Source: Bacteroidota bacterium
GTDB lineage: Bacteria; Bacteroidota; Bacteroidia; Bacteroidales; Prolixibacteraceae
Assembly (NCBI GenBank): GCA_030691295.1
Contig: JAUYEQ010000463.1
Location: forward strand, 1 to 26,104
Direction: 5' to 3'
Length of the DNA: 26,104 nt
Shown here: positions 4,581-25,358 of the stretch, piece by piece
How the letters are laid out: each line of letters starts with the position of its first letter
Position numbering within the stretch: the first letter of the stretch is position 1
Made by a program: the position numbers and the translations under genes
Notes under the pieces: generated by a model
Database searches by the model: none
Seen by the model: the letters and a program-made list of their open reading frames with translations, nothing else
Told to the model about the DNA's origin: nothing

Positions 4581-5282
4581 TTAAATCGTCAAATTGGTGT
4601 TATTTATTTCGATTTGCTTTGGAATACTAAACCAAAACGTTGATCCCTTTCCGACTTCGCTCTCCACTTTTAATTTACCATGGTGTGCTTCAATGATCTT
4701 TTTCACAATGGCCAAACCGAGTCCGGTAGATTTTTCGCTTGCAGTAGCCTTCACCGAGGTGGTTTGAAAAGGAGTGAATAATTTTTGAAGTTCTTCTGTC
4801 GGAATTCCCTGTCCCTGATCAATTATTTTGGTTAGAATTTCATCATCATTATCCGAAATATCAATCACAATTTTAGTGTTGGGAAACGAATATTTTATGG
4901 CATTGCTCAACAGATTAATTAACACCTGCTGGATTTTATTCCGATCGAAACTGGCCATAATGCTGCTTCCATCGGTTTTGATAATTATCTCCTGCGATTT
5001 ATTTCTCGCCAGTATTTCTTCGTGAACGATACTTTTTTTAACAAAAGAAAGGTATTCCAACTCACTCAGATTCAAATCGAATATACCTGCCTCAATTTTT
5101 GAAACATCGAGAAAATCGCGGATAAGGTTCAGTGAAAAGTCGCAACTGGCATTGATGTGTCCCAAATATTCAAGTTGTGTCTCTTTGGGTATCGTATCGA
5201 AATCGTCGATTAAAATATCTGAAAAAGAGCCTGCCACACCGATTGGATTTCTTAAATCGTGCGATGATTTTATACGTAATGC
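4581..5282 (-). pseudogene. Histidine kinase fragment, HisKA plus HATPase, no start codon
   Basis: The frame is open from 5282 (just after an in-frame TAA at 5283-5285) to 4581. It encodes an H-box SSHDLRNPIG (His codon 5259-5261), a complete HisKA helix pair, and a HATPase_c domain with N-box INLLSNAIKYS, G1 DQGQGI and G2 STGLGLAIVKKI. No ATG precedes the H-box; the first usable start (GTG at 5235-5237) lies after the phosphorylated His and would give a kinase without it. The preceding codons belong, in another frame, to a different kinase's ATPase domain (next entry). I read this as the 3' part of a kinase whose sensor end was lost by deletion. It could only work if a frameshift joined it to the upstream reading frame. 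Confidence 0.72.
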
Positions 5283-5622
5283 TTAAACCCAATCCTGTTC
5301 CGCTCCCAACCGGCTTAGTCGTATAAAACGGTTCGAATATACGGTCTTTTATTTCTTCCTGAATTCCGCATCCATCATCTTTTACTGAAATAGAAATATT
5401 TTTTTCAGCTTCGGTAACCGTAAGAGAAATGTGACCACCAATTTCAACGGCATAAACAGCATTGATTAAAACATTCAATATGGCCTGATTAAGCTGACCT
5501 GGATAGCAATCAATCAACAAATGATCAGGAAATGAAAGGTTTAGGGTTATGTTTTTTCTTGATATTTCTTTGGAATGTTGATCTGCATCCAGTTGTAATA
5601 AGGATAAATTTCCTGAAAACAT
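5170..5622 (-). pseudogene. Histidine kinase ATPase-domain fragment, both ends cut
   Basis: This frame carries a good HATPase_c core: CYPGQLNQAILNVLINAVYAV (N-box), KDDGCGI (G1), FEPFYTTKPVGSGTGLGL (F and G2 boxes), SITYKII. At its 5' side it overlaps the coding sequence for the 144-aa helical protein, and no HisKA domain precedes it. Recognisable sequence begins around SKEISRKN (about position 5565). At its 3' side the match stops after SITYKII (about 5265), where the next kinase's H-box begins in another frame; the last 30 residues are out-of-frame noise. It looks like the middle of a kinase left by two deletions. Confidence 0.7.
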
Positions 5623-5978
5623 TCAGGTAAAAGTTCCTTTTTATAGATTTCGATCCACCCATTTAGTTGGGCAGCCCAGTAGATAGAACTGAAATTCCGC
5701 GAGCGGTAGGCACGGAAAACCAAAAGTACGGTATCTACCAGAATTTCGGGCGAGTGCTGGTTGAAAATGGATTCGAGAAAACGTGCATGATTGGCATGAT
5801 TGTCCTTCATCATTTCCACATTTCCGGCTCCAACCATGTCGAGCAGATCGGGGCGAGCTTCCATTTTCGCATTCATCATGGCTACCAGACCATCTTTTTT
5901 TGAACCAAATTCGGCAGCGCTTTTTTCGGTTACCTGCTTTAGCTTTTCGGCGGTTGCAATTAAATAATTTCTATCCAT
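5547..5978 (-). CDS. Small helical protein of unknown function; possible N-terminal sensor domain of the broken kinase
   Basis: About 143 aa from the ATG at 5978, three nt after the B12-binding gene's stop (a GTG at 5981 is also possible). The protein is predicted mostly alpha-helical from its residue pattern, with a conserved-looking stretch FRAYRSRNFSSIYWAAQLNGWIEIYKK and a terminal aromatic patch YPYYNWMQINIP. I do not recognise the family by name. The last residues (KKYQEKT) look out of frame, because the kinase ATPase sequence starts here in the -1 frame. The intact ancestor was probably longer, with this domain as the N-terminal module of a histidine kinase. Its place at the end of the cobalamin cluster suggests a sensory role, but that is inference. 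Confidence 0.6.
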   Translation of the reverse strand: MDRNYLIATAEKLKQVTEKSAAEFGSKKDGLVAMMNAKMEARPDLLDMVGAGNVEMMKDNHANHARFLESIFNQHSPEILVDTVLLVFRAYRSRNFSSIYWAAQLNGWIEIYKKELLPECFQEIYPYYNWMQINIPKKYQEKT

Positions 5979-5981
5979 CAC

Positions 5982-6647
5982 TTAAGTTTTAAGGTTTGCA
6001 TTTATCGAGTCAATGTAATTTTCGAGCAGGTATAAATCTGATAAAAGCACCACATTTCCCAAACGCGACAAAGATTCTTCCGAAGCACGGCTGAATGCCT
6101 GCCCGCCAATAATGATCTGCAAAGCAGGAAATTCATTTCGCAGTTGTTCCAACATTTTCAGCAGATTGGCGAAATTAAAATAAACACTCAGCGAAATTGC
6201 AAGCATATCGGGTTTGGTTTCATGAATAAATTTTACCAGTTCTGAGGTGGGAATGCCCGTTCCGAGGAAAAAACTTTCCCAGCCTTTCATCTCGAAAACA
6301 TCGGCCACCATTTTAATACCCACCTGATGCTTTTCATTTTCGACACATGTTACCACCACCTTTTTGCTATACTTTTTCAGAGGAATCAACTGCTCGAAAA
6401 GTTCATTTAAAATTCCTTCGGTAACAGCAGTCGCCAGATGTTCTGTTGCCACAGTAATCTGATTGGTTTCCCACAAACGTCCCACTTCATACAACGATAC
6501 TTTAAAAACCTCTTCGTACAAGTCTTTAATGGAAGGATTTTCCTTCAGGTATTGCCGGGCAATGGATGAACAATTGGCGCGATTGCCTTTTAGAAGGTTT
6601 TGCAGATATTCCTGAACAAGAATCGGTTTGTTTTGGATGGTATCCAT
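5982..6647 (-). CDS. CarH/LitR-type B12-binding sensor domain protein without a DNA-binding domain
   Basis: A 221-aa cobalamin-binding protein. Residues about 5-90 form the helical cap domain with the signature W59-x9-E69-H70 of adenosylcobalamin photoreceptors (CarH/LitR). Residues about 95-220 are a Rossmann-like B12 domain with E105-K-H107-Q-V-G110, a DxHxxG-type motif in which H107 would be the lower cobalt ligand. SLS (152-154) and GG (181-182) complete the B12 fold pattern. No MerR-type HTH is present, so it is a stand-alone sensor, as in AerR-like antirepressors. The residue after W59 is Glu, whereas Thermus CarH has His132 there. I chose the ATG at 6647 because the longer ORF runs into the kinase gene; it begins 11 nt after that gene's stop. 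Light sensing is inferred only. Confidence 0.85.
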   Translation of the reverse strand: MDTIQNKPILVQEYLQNLLKGNRANCSSIARQYLKENPSIKDLYEEVFKVSLYEVGRLWETNQITVATEHLATAVTEGILNELFEQLIPLKKYSKKVVVTCVENEKHQVGIKMVADVFEMKGWESFFLGTGIPTSELVKFIHETKPDMLAISLSVYFNFANLLKMLEQLRNEFPALQIIIGGQAFSRASEESLSRLGNVVLLSDLYLLENYIDSINANLKT

Positions 6648-6658
6648 AATTTCAGATA

Positions 6659-8776
6659 TTAAACTGTTGCCGGTATCGTAAAATAAAACGTACTGCCCTT
6701 TTCCACTTCGCTTTCGGCCCAAATTTGGCCACCATGCTTTTCAACGAATTCTTTGCACAGAATCAAGCCTAAGCCTGCGCTGGGCTCGGAATCGGTTCCG
6801 GGACGGCTAACATTTTTATCAATTCTAAAAAGATTTTCAATTAATTCATGGCTCATGCCGATGCCGGTATCTTTTACCGAAAACCAAACTGTTCTATTTT
6901 CAGCTATATTGGCAGTGAGATCTATCCGACCACCGCGAGGTGTAAATTTTATGGCATTCATTATCAGGTTGCGCAAAATTGCTTTCAGCATGTTTGGATC
7001 GGCCATAACAACCAATCCTTCAGGGAAATAAACATTCAAGCCAACTGATTTGCTTTTTGCCATGATTTGGACCGATTCGTCGCAGTCGCCAATAAACGCT
7101 TTCAGATTAACCGGCTCAGGGTTAAACGGGATTAGACCCCGCTGCATCCGCGACCATTCCAGAAGGTTTTGCAGCAAATTAAAAGTTGACTCGGTGGTTT
7201 TGTGAATGGAACGTGTAAATTGTTGGAGATCTTCCTGCGAAAATTCACTGTAGTTATCGGCAATAAGTCCGGTAAGGCTAAGTATTGAAGCAAGCGAACC
7301 GCGCAGATCGTGCGAAATGATGGAGAAAAACTTGTCTTTCGTGGCATTCATTTCCCTTAAAAGCGCCTCACTGAGTCGAAGTTGTTCTTCGGCTTTTTTA
7401 CGTTCTGTTATGTCCTCGATCATACAAAGATGGAAGGGATTGGCTTTATTTTCAACCGTTATGGGCTCGATGGTCATGTTAATCCAGACAATGCTTCCAT
7501 CAGGTTTCAGATATCGTTTGTTCATTTGAAATCCCGCGATTTCTCCGGCATTCAATCGGGCCATGTTATCCAGGTCTTCCTGAATATCATCAGGATGAGT
7601 GATGCTCATCCAATCGATTATCCGTATTTCGTCACGGCTCCGGCCTGCAATTTCGGCAAACTTACTGTTCACGCTCTTGATTTTACCAGTTAATGAATCA
7701 ACCAGGGCTATCCCCAATGGAGCCTGTTCGAACATTGTACGAAAATGCTCTTCGCTTAATGACAAAGCCAAACGAGTGCGTTCGAGCTCTGAATATCTCC
7801 TGGCATTTGAAATGGCTAATCCACCAATTTGGCTGATAACCTGTTCCATCGGTTTATATCGAGGAATAAACTGTGGGAAGCGAACTTTGAGTACCTCGAA
7901 CAGTCCCAATGTTTCATTTTGGTGTGTGATCTCGATGGTAATGCTATCTTCAGGATTGAATGAAGTGTTTGGTAAAGTAGGTTCAGTTGTATTCGTTTCA
8001 ATTCCATTGACATACTGATGATAAACAAGCTTTTCAGGAACTAACAGCAGATGTAGCAAGCTGGTAATTTCCCTGATAATGATTTGCTCATCGGTATGGT
8101 CAATCAGATTTTTAAGATGGTTGAATATGAGGGAATAGTCGGCGCTTTCGCGGGCCAGCTTTTCAATCCTGCTGTTTTGCATTTTCCTTTCGGCTTCGTT
8201 TTTCCAATCCAGAATAATCGTATCGAGAAAGCTTTTCAGGTGGCTTGTTCCAATTGGTAAAATATCGTAAGGAACTCCCATGTATTCCGAAAGTGCGGTC
8301 AGATTGGTCTGGTAATCTCCCGGCAAGCCTGTTTCGAGGAGAAGGATTTTTCGGATTGATTCTCCAAAAAAGCTTTTAGCCGAAGCAGCATCAAATCCCC
8401 ATTCGCGTATTTTATGGTTATAATTGCGAAGCCATCCGTTTGAAACAAGGTAATTGCCCTGATTAATACAATGATAAATTGTTGGCAGTGGAAAAATTAT
8501 TTCAAAGCACTGTTCAAGGTGGATGATTTCCACGTTTTTCAGGTGGAGATTCAAAAGATTTTTTATACCCCTGCACGAACTTACAATGACAACAATTTTT
8601 GAATACTTATCGGGATTGTCGCCAATAATCTCAGTGATTCGCTGATCGGTAATTGTACAACCAACGCAAATAGCCGGAAAACTTTTCAACGTTACATCGT
8701 GATAGTCTCCGTTTTGCAAAATATGGCTGATCTCGGGCGCCAGCGAATTACAGATTATAATACAAAGTCGTTCCAT
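6659..8776 (-). CDS. Histidine kinase with Cys-rich DUF1638-like N-terminal domain, PAS and kinase core
   Basis: A 705-aa cytoplasmic kinase; I see no membrane segment. Residues 1-200 resemble the DUF1638 family by motif memory (VVIVSSCRGIKNLL, NQGNYLVSNGWLRNY, LLLETGLPGDY), with cysteines at 5, 9, 37, 40 (CVGC), 68, 90 and 103. Residues about 205-335 look GAF-like. A PAS domain spans about 340-460 (ending EDITERKKAEE). HisKA has H489 in FSIISHDLRGSL, and HATPase_c has N-box LRNLIMNAIKF, G1 KDTGIG (635-640) and G2 SAGLGL. It lies between two cobalamin-binding proteins and overlaps neither. Inference: the N-terminal domain senses a corrinoid protein or its redox/methyl state. No cognate response regulator is in the window. 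Confidence 0.85.
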   Translation of the reverse strand: MERLCIIICNSLAPEISHILQNGDYHDVTLKSFPAICVGCTITDQRITEIIGDNPDKYSKIVVIVSSCRGIKNLLNLHLKNVEIIHLEQCFEIIFPLPTIYHCINQGNYLVSNGWLRNYNHKIREWGFDAASAKSFFGESIRKILLLETGLPGDYQTNLTALSEYMGVPYDILPIGTSHLKSFLDTIILDWKNEAERKMQNSRIEKLARESADYSLIFNHLKNLIDHTDEQIIIREITSLLHLLLVPEKLVYHQYVNGIETNTTEPTLPNTSFNPEDSITIEITHQNETLGLFEVLKVRFPQFIPRYKPMEQVISQIGGLAISNARRYSELERTRLALSLSEEHFRTMFEQAPLGIALVDSLTGKIKSVNSKFAEIAGRSRDEIRIIDWMSITHPDDIQEDLDNMARLNAGEIAGFQMNKRYLKPDGSIVWINMTIEPITVENKANPFHLCMIEDITERKKAEEQLRLSEALLREMNATKDKFFSIISHDLRGSLASILSLTGLIADNYSEFSQEDLQQFTRSIHKTTESTFNLLQNLLEWSRMQRGLIPFNPEPVNLKAFIGDCDESVQIMAKSKSVGLNVYFPEGLVVMADPNMLKAILRNLIMNAIKFTPRGGRIDLTANIAENRTVWFSVKDTGIGMSHELIENLFRIDKNVSRPGTDSEPSAGLGLILCKEFVEKHGGQIWAESEVEKGSTFYFTIPATV

Positions 8777-8785
8777 TTAAATAAT

Positions 8786-8803
8786 TAACCGAATTTGCGG
8801 TTA
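8786..8803. repeat. Short perfect inverted repeat before the DUF1638-like kinase gene
   Basis: TAACCG (8786-8791) and CGGTTA (8798-8803) flank a 6-nt spacer, 10 nt upstream of the kinase ATG. It could be an operator half-site pair or a small hairpin near the start codon. No promoter motif was recognised beside it. Confidence 0.4.
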
Positions 8804-8816
8804 TTTTGTGTTCATT

Positions 8817-8896
8817 AATAAGGTAATAAGGTTATATTCTGTTTGTTATATACTTTCTACTGAGGTTATTTCCTTTAAAAATAAGGTTTTTTAAAA
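8817..8896 (+). repeat. Solo arm of the AATAAGG repeat family
   Basis: About 80 bp beginning AATAAGGTAATAAGGTT, with CTACTGAGGT at 8857-8866 and ending AATAAGGTTTTTTAAAA. It matches the arms at 9118-9196 and 22024-22101 closely in its second half. It has no facing partner at the usual distance on its left, where the kinase gene lies. Together with the unit at 8991-9196 it fills most of the gene-free stretch 8777-9212; the remaining A/T-rich 8897-8990 holds nothing recognisable. Confidence 0.85.
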
Positions 8897-8990
8897 GTTG
8901 TTCTATCTAAATAATTAAACTTAAACTGTCAATTTCTTTTACAACAAGTTTATTTTAAATTTTCTATATTCAAAAAACATGTGATCTCAT

Positions 8991-9196
8991 TTTCTTTAAA
9001 CCTTATTTGTTTATGGCTACCTCAGTAGGAAATCCGAGATCACAGCCAAAAACCTTATTACCTTATTTTGGCTTCATACTATTCAGATAATTCAGGTTGT
9101 TATTTTTAGCTTTTGCAAATAAGGTAATAAGATTTAATTCAGGCGGTTATATACTTTCTACTTAGGTTATATTCTTTAAAAATAAGGTTTTTTAAA
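8991..9196. repeat. 206-bp repeat unit 1: two facing arms of the AATAAGG family
   Basis: The left arm (8991-9067) is in reverse orientation and ends AACCTTATTACCTTATT. The right arm (9118-9196) is forward and begins AATAAGGTAATAAG. Both have the inner block CTACTGAGGT or a one-base variant, and an outer AATAAGGTTT block. The left arm also carries GGCTACC...AGCC. A 50-bp spacer separates them. The same arrangement and size occur at 21894-22101 with a different spacer. It sits 16 nt past the corrinoid gene's stop. It could be a MITE, a REP-like element or a structured RNA. No transposase and no convincing target duplication were seen. Confidence 0.85.
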
Positions 9197-9212
9197 GCCA
9201 ATGTATTTGGTT

Positions 9213-9851
9213 TTATCCGGCAGTCTTTTCATAAACCCCATATTCATGAATTGCTTCCGACGAATCTTTTCCAAAACCATCGGCGCCCACTTCTTTCCAA
9301 AGTTCTGCATCGAAGCGGAACGGGGCTCCGCCCACAATCAGTTTCACATTTGTATCACCAAGTCGCTGTTTCAAATCTTTAATGTGCAAAGCCGAGGGCA
9401 ACATCAGTACCGACAAGAGCATAATTTTTATCTTTTCTCTTTTAATCGTCTCAACCAGGCCATCAATGGTGAGTCCCCCGCCCAGATCGGTCAGTTCGAA
9501 TCCGGAAGCACGAAGCGAGGAAAAGACAATTCGCTTGCCCAACAAATGGTAATCCTCGAATACGCCAGGGGCCATTTTGGGCTGACTAATGCGAACCGGG
9601 TTGTTGGGTGGAAGGATTTTGTCTATCAACTCTTCGCAAATGACGCCACTCATATAAACCTGCGAAAGAGCCAGTGAACCTTCTTCCCAATCGTCGCCAA
9701 TTTTCTTCAAAGTTGGTGCGATTATCTGGTTGGCAATCTCAATTGCCGATCCTTGTTTTGATGCTTCGATCAGCACCTTTTCTGATGTATCTTTATCGAG
9801 CAGCAACAACGATCGTTCTAATTCATCACAGAAATGCTTTGTGTTTTTCAT
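9213..9851 (-). CDS. Corrinoid (B12-binding) protein, methyltransferase type
   Basis: A 212-aa protein. The N-terminal helical cap (about 5-85) has the pattern IGDDWEEGSLALSQVYMSG; the residues nine after W55 are V-Y rather than E-H, so it is the MtaC/MtbC/MetH cap type and not the CarH type. The B12 Rossmann domain (about 95-205) has D100-Y-H102-L-L-G105 (DxHxxG, with H102 the cobalt ligand), SVL (147-149) and VGGAPF (173-178). In related systems such proteins shuttle methyl groups between substrate methyltransferase and acceptor. No methyltransferase gene is present here, and the neighbours are histidine kinases, so a sensory role for bound cobalamin or its methyl state is a reasonable inference. 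Upstream lies the large PAS kinase (152-nt gap). Confidence 0.87.
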   Translation of the reverse strand: MKNTKHFCDELERSLLLLDKDTSEKVLIEASKQGSAIEIANQIIAPTLKKIGDDWEEGSLALSQVYMSGVICEELIDKILPPNNPVRISQPKMAPGVFEDYHLLGKRIVFSSLRASGFELTDLGGGLTIDGLVETIKREKIKIMLLSVLMLPSALHIKDLKQRLGDTNVKLIVGGAPFRFDAELWKEVGADGFGKDSSEAIHEYGVYEKTAG

Positions 9852-10003
9852 TCGAAAATATCAGTATTAATTAATTACTTATTAAGCGTTCTCATGGAAC
9901 TCACATGCCAATAGATTTCCACTTCGAACTATATTTTCATTGATTTTTGCGCCGCTACCTTTTAAATCATTTCTGCGGCATATTCGTTTCATTTTGCATA
10001 TTT

Positions 10004-13000
10004 TTACTGAAACAATGGCAACGTGAAATAAAACGTACTGCCATTGCCATGTTCCGATTCAACCCATATTTTACCCCCCATTAATTCCACGAGGTTTTTC
10101 GAGATGGCCAGCCCAAGCCCGTTTCCGCCAAACTTGCGGGTATAGGAAGCTTCCACCTGCCTGAAACGGTCGAAAACTTTGTGGTGATAATCAGCAGGAA
10201 TACCAATTCCCGTGTCTTTCACATGAAACTCAACCATCTCGCCGATTAGCCGGCATCCTATCTGTATATATCCTTCGGAAGTAAACTTGAGAGCATTGCT
10301 GATCATGTTATTAAAGATTTGCTGTAACCGTTCTTTATCTGCATTCACCAAAACAGCCTGATTTGATTCCGCATGCAGACAATCAAGATCGAGACGTAGG
10401 TTCTTTTGTTCCACTTTATAAATATGCATTGACCTGATTTCATCCAGAAATTGCATTACATCCACTTTCGATTTTCGGATCGTAATTTCACCTGATTCCA
10501 TCTTTGAAATATCCATTATATCGCTGATGATATTTAACAGGTTATTTCCATTGCTGATGATGTGATGGACAAATTCTTTCTTCTGATCGACTTCAAAATC
10601 AGCATCATCCAACAGCTCTGAAAATCCGATGATACTGTTGAGCGGCGTACGTATTTCGTGACTCATATTGGCCAGGAATGCAGATTTTAAGCGATCACTT
10701 TCTTCCGCTTTGTCTTTGGCGATAATAAGGTCAGCTTCCATTTGTTTACGAATACTGATGTCCTCTTTGATGGCAATGTAATTGGTAATGATTCCGTATT
10801 CGTCTTTAATCGAGGTCATTGTTGCCCATTCCCAATACATTTCACCGTTTTTTCTGCGGTTGTGAAATTCGCCGCGCCAAACTCCTCCCGATGAAATGAT
10901 GTCCCAGAGTTCCTTGTATTTTTCAGGTGACATTTCTCCAGATTTCAGCATGCGTGGATTTTGGCCAACTGCCTCTTCGTAAGAGTAACCAGTAATCTCA
11001 ATAAATTTAGGATTAACATATTCGATGTTGCCCAAAACATCGGTAATTACGATGGTAGAAGGGCTTTGTTCAATACTCTTTGAAAGCTTCTGTATCGTTT
11101 CGTTTGCTTTTTTTTGTTCCGTGATATCACGTCCAATGCCAACAAGTCCGGAAGTTTTTCCATTTGCATTGTAAATAGGAATCTTGGTGGTGAGCAACCA
11201 ACGTTTTTCACCATTTTTATCAACGAATATTTTTTCCCGATTAATAATCGGTTTTCCGTTTTCAATCACAATTAAATCATCTTCATAACCACGATAACCG
11301 GTTTCAGTATTAAATAGTTCCAAATCAGATTTACCCAAAACGTCACTTTCTTTCAAAACACCTATATTTTCAAGGTCGGCCCGGTTTGCAAGCATTTTGC
11401 GGCCCTGGTTGTCTTTCACATAGATCGGATCGGGCAAATGATCGATCAGTGTGCGCAGTAATTGCCGTTCATTCTGAATGGCTTCCATATCCATTTTGCG
11501 TTCAGTGATGTCCTGTATAGCTCCATGCATTCTGACGGGATTCCCATTATTATCAAATTCAAGTTTTCCTGTACTATAAACCCAGCGCTCAACGCCATCA
11601 CTGATACGGACTATTTTATATTCATGTTCGAACGGTATTCTTTCTTTTATAACATATTCATGATAAGCAACCATTTCTTCGCGGTAGTCAGGATGAATAA
11701 AGCCCGCCCAACCTTCTATTGTATGAGGATATGTTTTGTCTATTCCAAATATTTTATAAAATTCAGGCGAACATATCCATGAGCTTGCTCCTGGTTCATT
11801 TTCATTCAGATTTGTTGAATATGAACATGAATGTGCCACCGATTGCGAATTGCGCATCATCTCTTCGCTTTCAAATAACGCTTGTTCGGCATTTCTTCGT
11901 TCAGTTACATCGCGAAAATTGATAACTATCGCCTGAATATCGGGATCGGCGAGTAAATTATTTGCAATACCTTCAATCCAGAGCCACGAACCGTTCTTGT
12001 GCCGAACCCGCGTTGGCATTAGGGTGGCGATCCCCGGATTTTTGAGAATATCTGTAAACATACCTATCAGCGAATCTCTTTCATCCGGATGTATCAACTC
12101 CATCATGCTTTTCCCATTTCGTTCTTCAGCAGAATAACCCAGAATCTGCTGACACGAAGAGCTATGGTAAAATTCAAGACCACTGGCATCGACGAGCGAA
12201 ATAGCGTCGGAACTGTTTTCAATAAGTGCTCGGAATTTCTGTTCGTTCTTGCGCAAGCTTTCTTCTGCCTCTTTTCGTTTGGTTATATCGTTTATACTTG
12301 TAATAAAATAAAGCGGATTGTCATTACTGTCACGGTGCAAAGTTGTGCTGACATCGGTCCAGATGACGTCGCCGTTTTTATTCAAATACCGTTTTTCGAA
12401 ACGAAGGCGTTCAGCCTTCCCATCTAACAAGGTTTTTACCACATTCGCACTTTCCTGAATATCGTCGGGGTGTGTAATTTCCTGCCATCTTTTATTCCTG
12501 AATCCTTCCTCTGTATAACCCAGCATTTCATGTAAATGGCGGTTAATTAGCATGGTGCCATCGATATTGGTCATCGAAATACCAACAGTAGCATCTTCAA
12601 AAAGACTTCTGAATTTTTCTTCGCTTTCTTTTAATACATCATCCGTTCGTTTTCGTTTGGTAATGTCCTGAATGGTGCCAATCAGTGATAGAATATTCCC
12701 TTCTGCATCCAGATTTAACTGGCCCAAACCGTTTACCCACCTGATTTTCCCGTCTGATTTCCTGACGATCCGGTATTCCTTGTTAAACGGTTTTCGTTCA
12801 CCCAATACATCTTCACTCAGGTGCTTATCCATCATTTCAAGATCGTCTGTATGGATAAGATCCTTCCACCCCTCAACATCTCTTACATACTCTTTATCAA
12901 TTCCAAAAATACGATCGAGTACATCCGATGAATCCCAGAAACCGGTAGCAAGATCAAATTTATAGGATCCAAGGTAAGCTGCCCGTTGCGACTCCCTGAA

Positions 13001-13888
13001 AAAGAACTCACTTTCGAGTAGCCTTTTTTCAGCCTTGCGTTGCTCTGTCTGATCCTGAAATACCAAAACCACCCCAACAATTTCTCCGTTTTTGTTCCGG
13101 ATGGGTGAACCACTGTCGGCAATTGGCCTTTCAGTACCATCTTTGGCAATCAACAGCGTATGGTTGGCAAGTCCAACTATTACTCCTTCGCGAAGTACTT
13201 TCCTTACCGGAATTTCAACTTGCGCCCTTGTTTCTTCATTGATAATCGGAAAAACTTCTTCCAGTATTTTGCCGGCGGCATCTGTCTGCGACCATCCGGT
13301 TAGTTGTTCTGCAACCGGATTCATAAGCCTGACCTTCCTCTCAGCATCAGTAGTTATTACCCCATCGCCAATGCTGTATAAAGTAGTACGAAATCGATCT
13401 TCGCTTTCTGTTAAAACCAGTTCGATCTGTTGTCGCCTTCTGATTTCTTGTTCCAGTTTTTGGTTTTTGACATTCAAATCTACCTGAAGCTGAAACAAGC
13501 TAATGTGGGTTCTCACACGGGCAAGTATTTCTTCTTTTTGAAATGGTTTACTTATGAAATCGACCCCTCCAACCTGAAATCCTGCTAACATTGATTCCTT
13601 GTCGCCCGACCCACTGATGAAAATAACTGGTATGTTGCACGTGTTTTCATCGGCTTTCAATTGGCGGCACACGTCAAAACCATCCATCACAGGCATCAAA
13701 ATATCAAGCAGAACAAGCGATGGTTGATTTTCCTTTATGCTGCGCAAAGCAAATTCCCCGCTGTCAAACGAACGAACCAAATATCCTTCATTGGTAAGTA
13801 TATCAGACAAGAGCTCAAGGTGTTCAACCGTATCGTCAACAATTACAACCTGGAAATTTTCATCCTTGATTAATTCGTTCACCCTCAT
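10004..13888 (-). CDS. Receiver-multi-PAS sensor histidine kinase
   Basis: A 1294-aa soluble kinase. It opens with a receiver domain (about 12-125): acidic pair D18-D19, phospho-acceptor D62 in VLLDILMPVMDG, and K114 in ISKPF. A short coiled coil (about 130-160) follows. I count seven PAS/PAC repeats at roughly 160-280, 290-415, 420-540, 545-665, 670-800, 805-925 and 930-1050, several ending in DITERK/DITKRK. HisKA has H1077 in NMSHEIRTPLNSI, and HATPase_c has KDTGIGIP and GGNGLGLAISK. There is no transmembrane segment and no output domain. The N-terminal receiver suggests it takes phosphate from another kinase, perhaps one downstream. It is the first gene of the cluster, followed 152 nt later by the corrinoid protein. 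Confidence 0.93.
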   Translation of the reverse strand: MRVNELIKDENFQVVIVDDTVEHLELLSDILTNEGYLVRSFDSGEFALRSIKENQPSLVLLDILMPVMDGFDVCRQLKADENTCNIPVIFISGSGDKESMLAGFQVGGVDFISKPFQKEEILARVRTHISLFQLQVDLNVKNQKLEQEIRRRQQIELVLTESEDRFRTTLYSIGDGVITTDAERKVRLMNPVAEQLTGWSQTDAAGKILEEVFPIINEETRAQVEIPVRKVLREGVIVGLANHTLLIAKDGTERPIADSGSPIRNKNGEIVGVVLVFQDQTEQRKAEKRLLESEFFFRESQRAAYLGSYKFDLATGFWDSSDVLDRIFGIDKEYVRDVEGWKDLIHTDDLEMMDKHLSEDVLGERKPFNKEYRIVRKSDGKIRWVNGLGQLNLDAEGNILSLIGTIQDITKRKRTDDVLKESEEKFRSLFEDATVGISMTNIDGTMLINRHLHEMLGYTEEGFRNKRWQEITHPDDIQESANVVKTLLDGKAERLRFEKRYLNKNGDVIWTDVSTTLHRDSNDNPLYFITSINDITKRKEAEESLRKNEQKFRALIENSSDAISLVDASGLEFYHSSSCQQILGYSAEERNGKSMMELIHPDERDSLIGMFTDILKNPGIATLMPTRVRHKNGSWLWIEGIANNLLADPDIQAIVINFRDVTERRNAEQALFESEEMMRNSQSVAHSCSYSTNLNENEPGASSWICSPEFYKIFGIDKTYPHTIEGWAGFIHPDYREEMVAYHEYVIKERIPFEHEYKIVRISDGVERWVYSTGKLEFDNNGNPVRMHGAIQDITERKMDMEAIQNERQLLRTLIDHLPDPIYVKDNQGRKMLANRADLENIGVLKESDVLGKSDLELFNTETGYRGYEDDLIVIENGKPIINREKIFVDKNGEKRWLLTTKIPIYNANGKTSGLVGIGRDITEQKKANETIQKLSKSIEQSPSTIVITDVLGNIEYVNPKFIEITGYSYEEAVGQNPRMLKSGEMSPEKYKELWDIISSGGVWRGEFHNRRKNGEMYWEWATMTSIKDEYGIITNYIAIKEDISIRKQMEADLIIAKDKAEESDRLKSAFLANMSHEIRTPLNSIIGFSELLDDADFEVDQKKEFVHHIISNGNNLLNIISDIMDISKMESGEITIRKSKVDVMQFLDEIRSMHIYKVEQKNLRLDLDCLHAESNQAVLVNADKERLQQIFNNMISNALKFTSEGYIQIGCRLIGEMVEFHVKDTGIGIPADYHHKVFDRFRQVEASYTRKFGGNGLGLAISKNLVELMGGKIWVESEHGNGSTFYFTLPLFQ

Positions 13889-14125: not shown

Positions 14126-14560
14126 TTATAGTTTCACAATTTTTTCGGTTGAAAGTCTTCCATCGGCCAACTTCAGGGTTATTAAATAACTTCCGACCGG
14201 AACCTGACTCAAATCAAGCGTGGCTTCCAGGTTATTTACCGAAACGGTTTTGACTGTTTGTCCCATCAAATTACGAACGATCACCAGATCAATTCTTTTT
14301 TCGGATCTGATTCGCAAGTGGTCTTTTACCGGATTTGGGTACAATCTGACATTTGTTTCCAGTTGCTGGCCGATACTGTTTGGTCCGCAATTGGAACCAA
14401 CTACTTACGTCATGTATTTTGTTACCGACATTCCTCCTGAAAAGGCGAATTTACAGGCATAGGCAATTGTTGCTCGGGCAGTTTGACCGCTAATTGTGGC
14501 AGTAAATTTCTTTCCGCCAATATTGGTCATTTGTGTTTCGGAGAAAGGAGATTCTTTCCA
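14126..14560 (-). pseudogene. Remnant of a T9SS-exported protein: beta-sandwich end plus type A sorting domain
   Basis: The last 72 codons (14126-14344) encode a typical type IX secretion C-terminal sorting domain (YPNPVKDHLRI ... GSYLITLKLADG ... EKIVKL). The same frame reads upstream through recognisable protein (WKESPFSETQMTNIGGKKF, then CKFAFSGGMSVTKYMT). An in-frame TAA at 14405-14407 then interrupts it, after which VVGSNCGPNSIG continues. Another in-frame stop lies near 14600, and no start or signal peptide is present. So only the C-terminal 145 or so codons of a secreted, probably carbohydrate-active protein survive, with one nonsense codon. It follows the GH95 gene directly. The N-terminal family cannot be named from what remains. 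Confidence 0.8.
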
Positions 14561-14679: not shown

Positions 14680-17127
14680 TCAAAGTTTTCCTATTTTAAA
14701 AACATCTCCTTTTTTCGTTGCCAAATCATATTCAAATATTTTTTTTAAGTCAGACGCAGTAGCCGGAGCATTTGAATGATTTAAAGGCGCTTGAATTTCA
14801 GCCACAGTGAAGAATGTGTTGGGGTTTTCTCCTTTGGCTTCTTTTAAGCCTTTGCCTTTGAGCGGAGAGTATGAACGTATGCGACAGTTTCCACCAATTG
14901 AAGATTTAATGGTTGCCTTGGTTCTTTCGCCATTCTTCCATTGCATATCGACCTCAAAACCGCCTCTGGCCTTTAGTCCGCTTACGCTTCCATCTTTCCA
15001 AACCGAAGGAAGGGCTGGCAGCAAATGTACAGCGCCATCCTGACTTTGCAGCAGCATTTCGGCGATACCTGCTGTGCACCCGAAGTTACCATCAATCTGG
15101 AATGGTGGGTGAGCATCAAAAAGGTTCGTATAGGTTCCTCCGGCCATTCTGCCACCCGGAAGGATAGGTTTCAATTGTTCCGTAATCAGTTTATAGGCAT
15201 GGTCGCCATCAAGCAAACGCGCCCAGAAATTCACTTTCCAGCCCATCGACCATCCGGTTGATGCATCGCCGCGCGCAATTAAGGTGGTCTTTGCTGCACT
15301 GAATAATTCAGGATTGCGGTAAGGCGAAATCTGGTTTGACGGGAAAAGACCATACAAATGAGATACGTGACGATGTTGATCGGTTGGATTGTCTAAATCT
15401 TCCATCCATTCCTGCAATTGTCCCCATTTCCCAATTTGCATAGGAGGCATTCTTTTTAAGGTTTCGCTAAGTGTCACAACCAATTCCTGATCGGTGTTCA
15501 GAATTTGAGCTGCTTCCATGGTTCTGGTGAAAATATCGAATACTAATTGGTTGTCCATGGTTACTCCGGCAGCCAAAGTCGATGGGCGACCTTGCGGGTT
15601 ATTCTCCGGAGAAGTAGACGGACAAACCACCAACCAATGATTTACAGGCTCTTCAACCAGGAAGTCGAGAAAAAACATGGCTGATTCTTTAATTACAGGA
15701 TAAACTGATTTCAGGAATTCTTTATCGCCACTGAAAGCATATTTCTCGAACAAGTGTTGCGAAAGCCACGCTCCACCCATTGGCCACATACCCCAGGTTG
15801 CCCCATCGATCGGCCCGTTAATGCGCCATATATCCGTGTTGTGGTGAAGTACCCATCCGCGCGCACCATACATATCTTGGGCAGTCTTTTTACCCGTTTC
15901 CGAAAGTTCGCGAATCATCTGGACTAGCGGTTCATTCATTTCCGTCATATTGGTAATTTCCGACGGCCAGTAATTCATTTCGGTATTGATGTTCACCGTA
16001 TATTTGCTATCCCATGCCGGAGCTAACTCATCGGCCCATATTCCCTGAAGATTTGCCGGTTGTCCGCCTGGGCGTGAAGAAGAAATCAATAAGTACCGAC
16101 CAAATTGGAAGTAAATACTCACAAACTGAGGATCGTTTCCTGTGGCAAACTCGGCCAAACGTATGTTGGTTGGTTTCTTTGCTGCATCGGTTACACCCAA
16201 ATCAAGTTTCACCCTGTTAAAGTAGTTCTGAAAATCAGCAACATGATCTTTTAAAGCCTGATCGTACTTCTTTTTCAAGGCTTTCTGAAGATAAGCATTC
16301 GCTCTTTCTGTGGCATTGGCGCTCACATCCTGGTAATTCACAAAACTGGTAGCCATTGAAATATAAAGCGTTACCAAATCAGCATTGGCAACATCCAATG
16401 AAGATTCTGAAGCGGTTACCTTACCTCCTTTAGCCACGATTTTGACCTTGGCCTCGAACTTTACACTTCCGGGCATCTTTTCAAATTCGCTGGTAATTCC
16501 TGACATGATGAGTTCGCCGTTCGCATTGGCGGTAACATTTACCACAGATGGTTTCGGCCTGTCCATTGCTGCCGAAAATGTGATTGAACCCGGCTTATCA
16601 GCTTTAATTTGCACAATGATGACCTGGTCGGGAAAAGAAGAAAACACACTGGTTTCGTATTTTACTCCGTTTGATTCGTAACGCGAAGATGCTATTGCTT
16701 TTTCCAAATCGAGTTCACGATAATAATTGGTATAATTCTCATGTCCGGGGAATGTTAACTTCAGGTTACCAACCGTTTGGTAGGGCATTCCATGTGAAGC
16801 TTTCGTTATAAAATTCTTGTTTACCAAATCCTGTGCTTCCTTGTACTTGCCGTCAAAAATCAGCTTCCTGACTTCTTCCAACGATCCTTTTGCATCGGGA
16901 TTGTCGTTCCGGTTGGGGCTGCCAGCCCATAAGGTTTCTTCATTCAGTTGAATCACTTCGTTTACGGGGTCGCCATAAATCATGGCTCCTAAGCGACCGT
17001 TTCCAATTGGCAAAGCTTCAACCCATTGTTTGGCGGGCTGTTCGTACCAAAGTTTCAAGGATTTGTTTTGTGAATTGGCTTCATAAACCAATGCAAGGAT
17101 TAGTATCCAGAAAAAAGTATGTTTCAT
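14680..17127 (-). CDS. GH95 family alpha-L-fucosidase/alpha-L-galactosidase
   Basis: An 815-aa exported inverting glycosidase that removes terminal alpha-1,2-fucose or, in some members, alpha-L-galactose from xyloglucan, xylan or mucin side chains. The signal peptide is [20 protein letters not shown]. The N-terminal GH95 domain begins [20 protein letters not shown], and the (alpha/alpha)6 catalytic domain follows. Active-site elements are [12 protein letters not shown] (N379, N381, the water-activating Asn pair), [10 protein letters not shown] (E508, the proposed general acid) and [15 protein letters not shown] (670-683). Length is normal for the family. It lies 155 nt after the GH10 gene; that gap holds nothing I recognise. 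Substrate choice between fucose and L-galactose cannot be decided here; the xylan context allows either. Confidence 0.93.
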
Positions 17128-17282
17128 AAAAACAGAATTTCAATTGTTTGTAAAATTTTCGATCCTCACTTAATATTGTCGTGTAACAGCTGCTAATGAT
17201 GCTTGAGGTTTGCTCCATGCCCCATGCTCACATTAGCCGAAACCCACTAAATTTTGTCCTGAACTTACCTTACGATACGATT

Positions 17283-18431
17283 TCACCTTTTGGGAACATT
17301 TAAAACCGCATCCATTGCTGGTTTAGGGGTTTTATCCCTATTATATAGCAACGGATAATTGGTCCGACCCGGCACCGGATAGTCATTTTTCCAAGACATA
17401 CCATCGTGAAGCCCCCATAAGGTAACCCGGTCAATCTTATCTCGTTTCTTGTAAAAAATATCAAATAGTTCGGCATAACGATCAGCCAGTTGTACTTCAA
17501 CATTGGCAGGAAGTCCTTTGGAATATGGATCCATAAAAGTTTTGAATTCTTCCAACTGCCATTGAGGATCGCTCATAATATTACCAATCAACTGACCTTC
17601 TTTGGTCACCGGAAGCACATCCACGTCCAGTTCGGTAATCATGACCTTTACGCCCAGGGCAGCAAAGGTGTCAATAGCCGCTTCGATGTATTCATTCTTT
17701 GGAAAATTTAAACCCCAGTGACCCTGAATACCAATACCGTCAATACGGATACCTTCTTTTTTAAGCATGCGTACCATCCGGGCAATTCCGTCACGTTTGG
17801 CAGGGCGCCAGGCGTTAAAATCATTGTAATACAATTCTGCGTCAGGAGCATACTGGTTGGCAAATTTGAAAGCCAATTTCACCAACTCGTCCCCATCGCC
17901 AATACCTTTTACCCAAGTGGTTGGCCTGTACGATCCATCGTTGTCAATCACCTCGTTCACTACATCCCACGCATGAATCCTGCCAGTATATCTTCCGGCT
18001 ACCTGCTCAATGTAGCTCCTCATTTGCTCCACCAACGCATCGTGTGATTTTGTAATCCCGTGTTCGTCCCTGAAAAACCAATCAGGTGTTTGGTTGTGCC
18101 AAATTAGTGTATGTCCAACAATAAACATGTTGTGTTCTTCCCCGAACTTGACAAATGCATCACCCGGCGCGAAATTCCACACATCAGGTTTCGGATGGAC
18201 GATTTCGGCCTTCAGAACATTTTCAGGAGTAATGGAATTGAATTGATTAACAACAAGCCTCCCTGAAACCGAATCGGAACCATTAACAATGTCATCATTG
18301 ACAGAACAACCAATTTTAAAAGCTTCTTTATAAACCTCTTTTAGTGTCTTGTTTTGTGAGACATCTACTTTGTGAGATGAACAATTCACAAGAAAAACAG
18401 CAATAACTATTATCAGCAATAATCTTTTCAT
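17283..18431 (-). CDS. GH10 endo-beta-1,4-xylanase lipoprotein
   Basis: A 382-aa retaining endoxylanase that cuts the xylan backbone. A lipoprotein signal peptide ends in LVNC (C17), so the enzyme is membrane anchored, probably at the outer membrane. A single GH10 barrel follows: NSITPENVLKAE, VGHTLIWHNQTPDWFF, HAWDVVNEVID (acid/base E160), GIGIQGHWG, VMITELDVDV (nucleophile E267) and the closing VTLWGLHDGMSW. No carbohydrate-binding insertion is present, so it is the short GH10 form. It follows the tannase-family gene by 59 nt and is likely co-transcribed with it, which fits removal of ester groups together with backbone cleavage. Confidence 0.96.
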   Translation of the reverse strand: MKRLLLIIVIAVFLVNCSSHKVDVSQNKTLKEVYKEAFKIGCSVNDDIVNGSDSVSGRLVVNQFNSITPENVLKAEIVHPKPDVWNFAPGDAFVKFGEEHNMFIVGHTLIWHNQTPDWFFRDEHGITKSHDALVEQMRSYIEQVAGRYTGRIHAWDVVNEVIDNDGSYRPTTWVKGIGDGDELVKLAFKFANQYAPDAELYYNDFNAWRPAKRDGIARMVRMLKKEGIRIDGIGIQGHWGLNFPKNEYIEAAIDTFAALGVKVMITELDVDVLPVTKEGQLIGNIMSDPQWQLEEFKTFMDPYSKGLPANVEVQLADRYAELFDIFYKKRDKIDRVTLWGLHDGMSWKNDYPVPGRTNYPLLYNRDKTPKPAMDAVLNVPKR

Positions 18432-18490
18432 ACATCTAATTTTTTATTTTTGAAACAAAGAGCATACTTGAATTTGTATTGAATTTAGTA

Positions 18491-20239
18491 TTATGGAGCC
18501 TCACTCACAAATGAAGATACCTGATCAGCCGGTCCTCCTTTATATTTGGAATAATTTGGATACGAACACAGCAAATATCCTGCTCCTTCCTGTTTATCTC
18601 CAATTTTGCCTTTTGGATCGATAACAAGTGTTTTGGACGGTGCCCGATTTTCTTCAACCCAAGCCATCATCAGATTCATATTATCGTTTCCATCAGGTCC
18701 GGGAATGTTTTTAACATCCACAGGTTTTCCTTCGCCGTTTACTTTATAACTTTTCCCCGATAAACCATGTCCAGCCTGAGGAACCACATATAAACGGGCA
18801 AACTGATCAATTGTATTTCGTCCCATTTTGTCGATAAGCGACTGGTAATAATCGAGCTGAGCGCCGCAGGAAGCAATGTTATCTATTGCACCAATGGTAA
18901 TGATCATCTTTCCGCCATTTTTATAAAAAGCTGAAAGATCAGGATTTGTAGAATCAATCCATTCTGACAGTTGCTCCCTACGTTTGTTCCATTTTCCTCC
19001 TTCAACGTAATCGAGCGGATTGGCTTTAATGTCCTGCATCAGAAACCCGGTAACGCCAATTGTGCCCAAAGAACCGTGAACAGGAGCGTTTTCTCCGGCG
19101 CCTTCCTGGCCTTTAAATCGTTGACCGGTAATCATTCCGAAACCATCGGGTTCGGTTGTAGGCAGCCACATACCAAACGAGGTTACCCCGTTGGCCAATG
19201 GGGTTGCAAATTGGTAAGAACTATATACAAATTCCATTGTTTTGATTTGTTCATCAGTTAGTTTAGCCGATTCCGACTTGTCATTCGGGTCAGGATCAAT
19301 GTTGTCAGGCGCACGCAATGCAGCCCATGGATCGGTTGGGCCAATTCCATCGTTCACATTAAAAATAGCCCGTGCAGCCATGTAGTTGCTAATTATCCCA
19401 TCGGCAAGTCCGTCAAGCTGATCGCCTTGTCTGAGAAATTCGACCCTGATGGCATTTACCTTGGCCGGTGTCACCCAGTTTTTCAACGATTTTTCCTGAA
19501 TTTTCATCAGTTCGGGAGCAAGCATTAAGCTCGAAAAGTTTACAATCGGAACATTGGCAATTATTCCGTTGTAATCTTTCGGGTATCGTTGAGCTACTGT
19601 GAGCGCTTCGCGTCCACCCTGCGAGTTTCCCACATAATAATTGAACACAGGCCGCTTCCCATATACCCGCTCAATGATTACCATTACGGCGTCATGGGTT
19701 TTCTTCATCTGCATGTAACCAAGATTCCGGATTGCTTCATCATTCAAAGCCCATTCGTCTCCCGGGGTCGGACCTGATGCCAATGGTTTGCTCTGTGCTC
19801 CTCCAAAACCCATGCCACCTGCCTGATGCCCGGAGTCGCTTCCATACAAAGCAAATCCTTTGTCAACCATCGAATTTTTGCCCTCTCTTACTGTAATTGT
19901 ACCGTTTATTCCACCTCCTCCGGCCTGAATGGAACGATGAGACCAACTGGCTGGCAACAATACCCTGAAATTAATGGGCCAGCCGTTTGGATCAACAGGA
20001 AATATGGAGCCTTCAACAACACCATAAGCAGGAGCAGCATCCGTGGCTTCAATCCACCGTGGCTCATAAAGTTTTACCGAACTTACAGGTTCGCCAATTT
20101 CCGGAGCAGGAACAAACTTCCCAGCTTTTGCGATATCGGCTTTGGAAATAGTAATATTTGCAGGAATTTTTGTCTGGCCAAAAGTTAGTGAAGCCGCCCA
20201 AAATGATACTGCAATAACAAAACAGGATATTTTTCTCAT
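18491..20239 (-). CDS. Tannase/feruloyl-esterase family hydrolase lacking the family cysteines
   Basis: A 582-aa exported alpha/beta hydrolase (signal peptide ending LTFGQ) of the tannase/feruloyl esterase family. Family features seen: an oxyanion-side AGGGGINGTI, GFALYGSDSGHQ, nucleophile elbow VGNSQGGRE (S206), a Ca-binding-like DQLDGLADGII (273-282), D453 in IGAIDNIASCG and H491 in PQAGHGLSG. In fungal and bacterial relatives the nucleophile and histidine are each next to a cysteine (the CS-D-HC motif). Here the neighbours are Asn and Gly, so the tethering disulfide is absent, and the Cys usual before the Asp-rich lid is also missing. With GH10 and GH67 beside it, a role in removing feruloyl or other phenolic esters from xylan is the likely one. 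Substrate is not proven. Confidence 0.85.
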   Translation of the reverse strand: MRKISCFVIAVSFWAASLTFGQTKIPANITISKADIAKAGKFVPAPEIGEPVSSVKLYEPRWIEATDAAPAYGVVEGSIFPVDPNGWPINFRVLLPASWSHRSIQAGGGGINGTITVREGKNSMVDKGFALYGSDSGHQAGGMGFGGAQSKPLASGPTPGDEWALNDEAIRNLGYMQMKKTHDAVMVIIERVYGKRPVFNYYVGNSQGGREALTVAQRYPKDYNGIIANVPIVNFSSLMLAPELMKIQEKSLKNWVTPAKVNAIRVEFLRQGDQLDGLADGIISNYMAARAIFNVNDGIGPTDPWAALRAPDNIDPDPNDKSESAKLTDEQIKTMEFVYSSYQFATPLANGVTSFGMWLPTTEPDGFGMITGQRFKGQEGAGENAPVHGSLGTIGVTGFLMQDIKANPLDYVEGGKWNKRREQLSEWIDSTNPDLSAFYKNGGKMIITIGAIDNIASCGAQLDYYQSLIDKMGRNTIDQFARLYVVPQAGHGLSGKSYKVNGEGKPVDVKNIPGPDGNDNMNLMMAWVEENRAPSKTLVIDPKGKIGDKQEGAGYLLCSYPNYSKYKGGPADQVSSFVSEAP

Positions 20240-20297
20240 ATTTTCTTTAATTTATGTATTTTGAGTCATTGTTGTCCGGTAAAATAATAAATTTATC

Positions 20298-20406
20298 CGC
20301 TACGCGGAAGTGCAAATTTTGGTTGTATTGATCTACAATACTTTATCCCTGCCTGAGGCCGGCAGGCGCTACGCGGAAATTTCTCCGTAGTAGATTTAGT
20401 ATTGTA
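20298..20406. repeat. Nested palindromes and a direct repeat, GC-rich island
   Basis: In the 261-nt gap between the GH43 and tannase genes, TACAATACT (20334-20342) and AGTATTGTA (20398-20406) form outer 9-bp inverted arms. Inside, CCTGCC (20348-20353) pairs with GGCAGG (20361-20366). The 12-mer CGCTACGCGGAA occurs twice (20298-20309 and 20367-20378) and its core CCGCTACGCGG can itself fold. The GC-rich island stands out from A/T-rich flanks and resembles a small dispersed palindromic repeat. No poly-T follows it, so it is a poor terminator. Confidence 0.7.
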
Positions 20407-20500
20407 TTAGTAAAAACAAGCCCCTAACAGCGTTTACCTCGCAGAGGTTAAACCAAACAAGTAACAATTAACGATTTGAAATTCATAAATAATTCCTCAT

Positions 20501-21850
20501 TTATTTGAACTGCAGCCAGTCAATTTCAGTTTTATTTTCATCTTTCATTACCAAAACCAGGTTGTGAATTCCAGATTGAAATTTTGATACTTTTGCTTCA
20601 ACTGTATTCCAGTTTTTACTTTTTGGAACATTTACTTCAGCAATTACAGGACCATCGGCTTTATCCAACCTGATTTGCAAAGTGCTTCCATTTTCTGACT
20701 GGGCCTTTACCTCAACCGTCTTCAATTTCTTCCTTCCAAAATCAACGGTATTGTATTGTACCCAGGCTTCGGGAGCTTCAAGAATTGTTTTCCAGCCGGA
20801 AAAAGTATTGACCGTATCAAGAAGTGCAATGGATGCACCGGTTTTGCTGAGCTTGTTGTACCGATCGGGTTGAATGTTTTCTTTGGCTGAAGTCACTCCT
20901 ACCCCACGCAATGTTGGGATTACTTTCCGAATTTTACCATCGGTATCAAAAAACAAACTATCGACCCTTATCGATCTGTTTTTGTCGAACTTCGGAGAAT
21001 AATCGTTGTGATGATAGAACAAATACCATTGATTGTTATACTGAACAATAGATTGATGATTGGTCCAGCAGTTTTCGGGCGATTCATCCATGATCACTCC
21101 CGTCATTTTGAAAGGTCCCATTGGATTGTTGCCAATAGCATATTCGAGTCGTTCAATTTTGTTTTCAACATGTGGAAAAGTAAGGTAATAAACGCCATTG
21201 CGTTCAAAAACAAAAGGACCTTCCTTCAATCCTTTCTGTGGAAGATTGGGAATTGCCAACGGTTCTGAATCCAATTCAAGCATATTCTCTTTTAACTTGG
21301 CCACAAATAGATTTCCCATCGACCAGTACAAATAAGCCTGTCCGTCTTTGTCGATGAGCACATTCGGATCGATCCCATTAACGCCTTTAATAGGTTCGGT
21401 TTGCGGAATATAAGGTCCTTCAGGTTTGTCGGCCACAGCGACTCCAATACCAAAACCTTTTCTTCCGTTTGGATCAGCGACGTTTTTGTTGGCCGGAAAA
21501 TAGAAGTAATACTTTCCGTTCCGTTCAATACAATCGGGAGCCCACATACTGTAAGTAGTTGAATCGACCCAAGCCACTTTGTTCTGGCTAACAATCATAC
21601 CGTGATCAGTCCAGTCGGTCAGGTTTTCAGAAGAAAAAACGTGATAGTCTGCCATACAAAACCAGTCTTTTCTCAAACCCTTTCCTTCCGGAGCAGGTAT
21701 ATCATGCGAAGGAAAAACATATACTTTGCCATTGAACACCCTTGCAGTTGGGTCGGCAGAAAACTGATTGCGAACAATGGGATTTTGAGCTGACAAGCTG
21801 CCAACTCCTAAAACTGCCAGACCAAATATGAATGATTTATAATTTTTCAT
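20501..21850 (-). CDS. GH43 beta-xylosidase/alpha-L-arabinofuranosidase-like enzyme with C-terminal CBM6-like domain
   Basis: A 449-aa exported inverting glycosidase (signal peptide ending SLSAQ). The five-bladed propeller carries the GH43 acid trio: D33 in FSADPTARVF (general base), D161 in VNGIDPNVLID (pKa modulator) and E210 in KGLKEGPFVFERNG (general acid). Residues about 325-449 form a jelly-roll CBM6/CBM35-like module (TVDFGRKKLKTVEV ... LQIRLDKADGPVIAEV ... LVMKDENKTEIDWLQF). Such enzymes release arabinose or xylose from arabinoxylan or arabinan. The exact subfamily is not decidable here. It is 261 nt upstream of the tannase-family gene, and its own upstream region holds repeat unit 2. 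Confidence 0.92.
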   Translation of the reverse strand: MKNYKSFIFGLAVLGVGSLSAQNPIVRNQFSADPTARVFNGKVYVFPSHDIPAPEGKGLRKDWFCMADYHVFSSENLTDWTDHGMIVSQNKVAWVDSTTYSMWAPDCIERNGKYYFYFPANKNVADPNGRKGFGIGVAVADKPEGPYIPQTEPIKGVNGIDPNVLIDKDGQAYLYWSMGNLFVAKLKENMLELDSEPLAIPNLPQKGLKEGPFVFERNGVYYLTFPHVENKIERLEYAIGNNPMGPFKMTGVIMDESPENCWTNHQSIVQYNNQWYLFYHHNDYSPKFDKNRSIRVDSLFFDTDGKIRKVIPTLRGVGVTSAKENIQPDRYNKLSKTGASIALLDTVNTFSGWKTILEAPEAWVQYNTVDFGRKKLKTVEVKAQSENGSTLQIRLDKADGPVIAEVNVPKSKNWNTVEAKVSKFQSGIHNLVLVMKDENKTEIDWLQFK

Positions 21851-21893
21851 TGATTTATTTTTAAATTGGTTTTATAAAAAACATTTATTGCCA

Positions 21894-22101: not shown

Positions 22102-22184
22102 GACATCGTATTATGGTTAATCCGATTTGATATTTATCTCGTCAATTTTCCCTTGTTCAATAAAAACACATTTTATACTATGTA

Positions 22185-25344: not shown

Positions 25345-25358
25345 AGGTTTATGATTTG

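Follow-up and report, generated by a model that had tools for sequence, protein, structure and literature searches.

A stretch of 26,104 nucleotides from a Bacteroidota bacterium (contig JAUYEQ010000463.1; the whole stretch is referred to here as the window) raises the question of what two different B12-binding proteins do among a series of histidine kinases. According to the original prediction, which placed this cluster at 5547..13888, both proteins belong to one signalling system in which cobalamin acts as a sensory cofactor. As judged by sequence comparison, the window holds a damaged version of a B12-globin signalling operon with sensor kinases that is conserved among bacteria. The domains described earlier were borne out by Pfam, namely two B12-binding open reading frames (ORFs; 5982-6722 and 9213-9851, each with PF02607 and PF02310), a DUF1638-PAS-HisKA-HATPase kinase (6659-8776), a giant kinase with a receiver (REC) and multiple PAS domains ahead of HisKA and HATPase (10004-13888), and two HATPase ORFs regarded as kinase remnants (5170-5622 and 4581-5237). 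Several corrections were nevertheless needed. The first concerns the extent of the cluster: the ORF list and the Pfam and NCBIfam matches show that it lies on the minus strand and runs from 13888 down to 4581.

The conserved core starts with the CarH-type protein, a stand-alone B12-binding protein of the CarH/photocobilin type (5982..6647, minus strand; 221 amino acids). This length assumes that the gene starts at ATG 6647 rather than at TTG 6722, which is probable because the 17 aligned homologues (aligned with the window protein, from 120 listed and 1038 found) begin near residue 26. Two tblastn matches (L052 and L056; relatives are given locus numbers here) speak against this start, as they reach residue 1. 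ATG 6647 lies 11 bases behind the DUF1638 kinase gene. The light-sensor motifs W-x9-EH and E/DxH (in the form ExHxxG) are present, in agreement with the alignment to the photocobilin SasPcob, and 88-89 of 89 loci retain their residues W, E, H and E, H, G, at least four contigs occurring twice among these loci. The NCBIfam CarH model scores 60.5 bits, far below its cut-off of 400, and the best matches in the PDB are photocobilins, with a weaker match to CarH. The protein shares the light-sensor motifs with CarH and, unlike CarH, has no MerR-type helix-turn-helix DNA-binding domain, as Pfam gives B12 domains only; it is therefore not a repressor of the CarH kind.

Immediately behind it on the same strand lies an ORF of 144 amino acids (5547..5981) for which no sequence match was found in Pfam, NCBIfam or the PDB. 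Its homologues identify it as a conserved protein and as the key partner of the CarH-type protein. Structure prediction gave a globin/phycobiliprotein fold with a predicted local distance difference test score (pLDDT) of 93.7, and a fold search with this model returned the smURFP-biliverdin complex and phycobiliproteins as similar structures. Because of this modelled fold, the two proteins together look like a split, photocobilin-like photoreceptor. The coupling of a globin-fold domain to a B12 domain that typifies photocobilins is indicated by the predicted fold, the adjacency of the genes and the existence of fused globin-B12 versions among the relatives, whereas in the window the two are encoded by separate ORFs rather than as a single polypeptide. 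The alignment of the globin family comprised the window protein and 52 of 63 non-identical globin ORFs, 11 having been dropped. Two other assignments of the ORF were rejected. It is not a kinase fragment, since its homologues are independent open frames of 144-187 amino acids, and it is probably not a heme-binding globin, since no conserved His was seen in helix 78-94 in the alignment rows, of which every second one was inspected.

The association of the two genes extends well beyond the window. A profile scan with the CarH-type alignment against one genome per species (84,980 species) yielded 136 relatives, and the analysis went on with the best 80 of them. In 63 of these 80 named loci a member of the globin family is encoded on the same strand within 2 kb of the B12 gene. 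These loci are spread over several phyla, their hosts including Bacteroidota, Desulfobacteraceae and relatives, SAR324, Spirochaetota, Oligosphaera, Fibrobacteria, Balneolaceae, Halorhodospira and others. The globin gene mostly follows the B12 gene directly and sometimes precedes it or lies behind the kinase. A kinase usually adjoins the pair and carries its own N-terminal PAS-like domain of about 115 amino acids, detected in 54 ORFs across the retrieved loci. Profile comparison (probability 97, E 8.6e-11) indicated that this input domain is common to a group of proteins in the same neighbourhoods, one of which is a diguanylate cyclase (L112). In 17 of the 80 loci the globin gene is followed by two kinase ORFs, with no gap reaching 250 bases; the second one is a receiver-kinase in L048, the locus scanned for it. 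The first of these kinases, termed HK1, is intact in L050, and the second, REC-HK2, is intact in L048. In L048 and L049, a kinase related to the giant kinase of the window (10004..13888, minus strand; 1294 amino acids) lies directly before the B12 gene, as seen from gene order and tblastn. In five loci of Desulfobacterota (L108, L109, L113, L117 and L123), receiver proteins with a Cys-containing C-terminal tail of the ICMHCKKIRDD type accompany the cassette, and a similar tail ends a PAS-like protein of L090.

Three observations somewhat lower the confidence in a photocobilin-like pair. Presence of the globin, as a label on the B12 tree (in which roughly one in four of the 120 listed fused proteins was included), requires 13 changes, which points to repeated loss or exchange of the partner; within the window's order, 11 of 198 genomes gave a globin match; and methionine synthase ranks above CarH among the PDB matches of the CarH-type protein. 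The distances between B12 proteins and those between globins are correlated (Mantel r 0.765 for 64 non-redundant of 69 pairs), but relatedness of the species confounds this value and we do not count it as proof.

The second B12 protein is an MtbC-type corrinoid protein (9213..9851, minus strand; DxHxxG motif read from the sequence), assigned by Pfam and NCBIfam and by tblastn and blastn matches to L047 and L050. In these two loci it is followed by a 347-amino-acid methyltransferase of the MtaA/CmuA family and the DUF1638 kinase and then by the B12-globin core, with one additional kinase between module and core in L047. The MtbC-type, methyltransferase and DUF1638 kinase genes are an extra module apart from the core: they were seen together in 2 of the 80 named loci, and the corrinoid protein was rejected as a core member on account of this rarity. 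Conservation of the neighbourhood, on which the original prediction had staked its case, thus holds for the CarH/globin/kinase part and not for the DUF1638/MtbC part. The kinase of the module (6659..8776, minus strand; 705 amino acids) consists of DUF1638, an unassigned segment, PAS, HisKA and HATPase. Such kinases form 63 clusters in the protein collection, the window protein included, and occur in 3 of 395 genomes of the phylum, of which one is the window's own and the other two give weak matches; L048 and L049, although close relatives, have no match anywhere in their genomes. Genome searches for DUF1638, and likewise for the heme oxygenase and HutW considered below, covered 50 of the 63 globin-bearing named loci, 13 being left out. 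A DUF1638 domain was present in 4 of these 50 cassette genomes, in two of them at only 27-28% identity. In the alignment of the window kinase with 32 of the 62 other clusters, C37 and C68 of the DUF1638 region are invariant and C9 and C90 nearly so, which hints at a metal or thiol site. We read the DUF1638 genes as an inserted, methyltransferase-linked sensor module. In the relatives, which carry the methyltransferase itself, this module looks enzymatic. All NCBIfam matches of the corrinoid protein and the methyltransferase are below the curated cut-offs.

Comparison with the relatives showed that the composition of the cluster in the window is partly the product of deletions, as the methyltransferase gene is lost and the globin and both downstream kinases are truncated. 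At junction 1 (9247..9260, minus strand), about 1.03 kb is missing relative to L047, nearly all of the methyltransferase gene. The corrinoid protein matches its relatives up to about 9247, and its last 15 or so residues (9260-9216) are the C-terminus of the deleted MtaA/CmuA-family enzyme. The earlier statement that no methyltransferase is present is therefore right for intact genes only. Accordingly, the pairing of corrinoid protein and intact methyltransferase that marks MtaA/CmuA-MtbC systems is lacking in the window and intact in L047 and L050. Junction 2 (near 5570), with about 0.93 kb missing relative to L049, removed the end of the globin, which is truncated at about residue 137, and most of HK1, including its input domain and phospho-acceptor. 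Junction 3 (about 5254-5263), with about 0.63 kb missing relative to L049, removed the end of HK1 and the receiver half of REC-HK2. What remains, according to Pfam, tblastn and the junction comparison, is an HATPase piece of HK1 (5254..5568, minus strand; about residues 291-397 of some 420) and REC-HK2 from about residue 182 of some 408 (4581..5264, minus strand). Both are fragments without phospho-acceptor and ATPase domains in one frame and thus not complete kinases. With the globin, HK1, REC-HK2 and the methyltransferase all damaged, the window copy is probably not a working relay.

An alternative is that the deletions arose during assembly of the draft bin and that the operon is intact in the organism itself. 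We consider this doubtful, even though the draft genome consists of 721 contigs, the junctions lie at short imperfect repeats, and in our own reading other window genes look incomplete as well (22185-23218 and 14127-14460). A control region of 12 kb from elsewhere in this genome aligns collinearly to the L049 genome with no kilobase-scale loss, which favours local decay over general misassembly, but a single control stretch counts for little. The missing N-terminus of HK1 had no match at E<=0.001 elsewhere in the bin, in a search run without a positive control, and the missing methyltransferase had only a match of 22% identity. In addition, position 87 of the window globin is Leu, whereas Trp occupies it in the other 172 of 173 sequences.

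Returning to the intact loci, the core is probably a split photocobilin-like sensor, in which a CarH-type B12 subunit and a globin-fold subunit control the PAS-like HK1, with REC-HK2 and the large PAS kinases as a relay. The conserved pair, the motifs, the predicted fold, the fused versions, the linkage to kinases and an input domain in common with the diguanylate cyclase group form the basis of this proposal, from which we infer adenosylcobalamin (AdoCbl) binding, a light response, complex formation and kinase control. Most likely, AdoCbl bound to the B12 subunit would be photolysed, or its adenosyl state read. The B12/globin complex would rearrange after light exposure or loss of the adenosyl group and might then act on the PAS-like domain of HK1 by protein-protein contact. 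Such a contact mechanism has been proposed for photocobilins mixed with a separate cyclase (Zhang 2024, PMC10979010). Phosphate could subsequently pass among the kinases and receivers to an output encoded elsewhere.

Whether the globin subunit carries a pigment is a separate matter. The bilin is held by Asp270 in SasPcob (PMC10979010) and by a CXQD motif in photoglobins (PMC10151467). Of the 173 sequences of the family studied here, 171 have Asn at the Asp position and 166 have Met at the Cys position, whereas 172 retain the Trp that corresponds to Trp296 of SasPcob. Among four classical photocobilins encoded on plasmids, the Asp is present in all four and the Cys in three. The register of the site was derived from an ungapped hidden Markov model (HMM) alignment, the VIA ranges and the D-to-W spacing, without coordinates or the SasPcob globin sequence, so that a shift by one residue is possible. 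With the same reservation, D60 was rejected as the bilin Asp, as the ungapped HMM alignment, the VIA offset and the D-to-W spacing all place N61 there. The heme oxygenase family PF01126 was not found in the window's own genome, which is 93% complete. It was found in 2 of the 50 cassette genomes (L127 and L128), the completeness of which is not given, and the anaerobic enzyme HutW reached or exceeded its cut-off in 2 of 50. Three further loci have a heme oxygenase with a photoglobin-like extension beside a CarH-type B12 gene and a kinase (L106:5315-6634, L116:11517-13061 and L120:8636-9967; assigned by Pfam in L106 and L120 and to the same family by clustering in L116). The heme oxygenases of L127 and L128 likewise carry a C-terminal extension. 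In L106, L116 and L120 the extension is similar to the profile of classical photoglobins (hhalign probability 94.7, E 6e-8), and all 3 have the Asp. Because these three loci retain an Asp-type photoglobin-like domain, these observations support the view that the Asn-type clade gave up or changed its bilin, and the globin of the Asn-type clade is unlikely to bind biliverdin in the manner described for photocobilins.

We therefore weighed how far the pair still resembles a photocobilin. It is unlikely to be a full one, in which red light too would be sensed through biliverdin or another bilin on the globin, supplied by other organisms or made by an enzyme that escaped recognition. The similarity of the modelled fold to smURFP-biliverdin and phycobiliproteins and the conserved Trp would suit such a function, as would the finding that AbPcob, in which His takes the place of the Asp, retains a red-light response at low biliverdin occupancy (PMC10979010); the replacement of Asp and Cys and the rarity of heme oxygenase and HutW argue against it. 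A tentative proposal, for which we put the chances at somewhat below even, is that a large clade of B12 photoreceptor-type proteins in largely anaerobic bacteria kept the globin and lost the bilin. The globin would then be a chromophore-free or differently liganded coupler that passes the AdoCbl state to the PAS-like domain, which would drive either of two interchangeable outputs, a histidine kinase or a diguanylate cyclase.

It seems rather unlikely that the B12 subunit senses cobalamin supply or the redox or oxygen state instead of light, with the globin as a structural coupler. B12 chemistry can report redox, the names of the relatives point to many sediment-type sources, and the bilin motif is altered, but the near-complete conservation of W-x9-EH and ExHxxG and the fact that the best-matching solved structures are photoreceptors speak against this idea. 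Very unlikely is the earlier view that the two B12 proteins are paired sensors of one cluster. In the window, L047 and L050 the genes do lie side by side with the same orientation; against this stand the rarity and the partly low identity of the DUF1638 domains noted above and the methyltransferase that accompanies the second B12 protein in relatives. Cobalamin as a sensory cofactor is thus supported for the CarH-type protein by its motifs, photocobilin matches and kinase neighbours, but not as the basis of a two-sensor system.

The split photocobilin-like sensor belongs to a kind that is already known, as photocobilins, photoglobins and adjacent globin/B12 gene pairs have been published. Reportedly, the photoglobins of Schneider 2022 are globins without heme that occur together with a B12-binding light-sensor domain and with signalling proteins. 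The claim that no named system is comparable does not stand, since the core probably works like the published photocobilins and photoglobins (PMC10979010). The photocobilins SasPcob and AbDPcob share with it a CarH-type B12 domain, W-x9-EH and E/DxH, and a five-helix globin-fold partner, and they regulate an enzyme that is fused to them or mixed with them; they differ in that there are two proteins here, with kinase neighbours, Asn in place of Asp and heme oxygenase in so few genomes (PMC10979010). The BBAG-2 globins resemble our pair in being encoded separately from, and adjacent to, a B12-binding protein, but in Myxococcales they go together with heme oxygenase and bilin reductases, and no kinase cassette is described in the portions of that paper compared (Rockwell 2023, PMC10151467). 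The SignatureFinder set likewise contains B12 domains with light signatures fused to many outputs, bilin-binding domains included, whereas the term histidine kinase does not occur in the main text of that paper (PMC11796333). The second module resembles MtaA/MtaC-MtbC systems in its B12 protein and, in relatives, its MtaA/CmuA-family enzyme; unlike them, it stands beside a DUF1638 kinase, has lost its methyltransferase in the window and gives NCBIfam matches below the cut-offs.

What looks new in these sequences is a split, motif-altered and kinase-coupled type without heme oxygenase. An Asn-type, kinase-coupled split form is not described in the parts of the photocobilin, BBAG-2 and SignatureFinder literature compared, the Schneider 2022 photoglobin paper lying outside this comparison. 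Literature searches returned no paper recognisable by its listing as describing a B12-globin-kinase cassette. If the proposal is correct, many uncultured bacteria would have a B12-based sensor of light or of the AdoCbl state with a two-component output. The Asn-type cassette would also be a natural test of the role of the photoglobin subunit without the published bilin site. As in three loci a related B12 protein has as its neighbour a heme oxygenase that is fused to a photoglobin-like domain of the Asp type, a direct comparison could be made between versions that depend on a bilin and versions that apparently do not.

Lastly, the surroundings of the cluster are unremarkable. On one side it is flanked by genes read from the sequence, without a family search, as ilvD, ilvB and ilvN, and on the other by a polysaccharide-degradation locus (14680-26104) with Pfam matches to the glycoside hydrolase (GH) families GH95, GH10, GH43, GH67 and GH97 and to tannase/feruloyl esterase. 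Two ORFs at 22185-23218 look like what is left of a single family-9-like glycoside hydrolase, its N- and C-terminal parts without the middle; they have no Pfam match. A remnant resembling a C-terminal sorting domain, without a recognisable upstream gene, was read from the sequence at 14127-14460. In line with the original prediction, the 15 window ORFs scanned with Pfam showed no domain for B12 transport or synthesis, and no Rfam family, and hence no cobalamin riboswitch, reached its threshold in the window. In the intergenic space at 8811-8895 and 9118-9190, an element of about 80 bp apparently occurs twice; each copy has a match in intergenic DNA of L050, and in L047 the two regions align to a single place.
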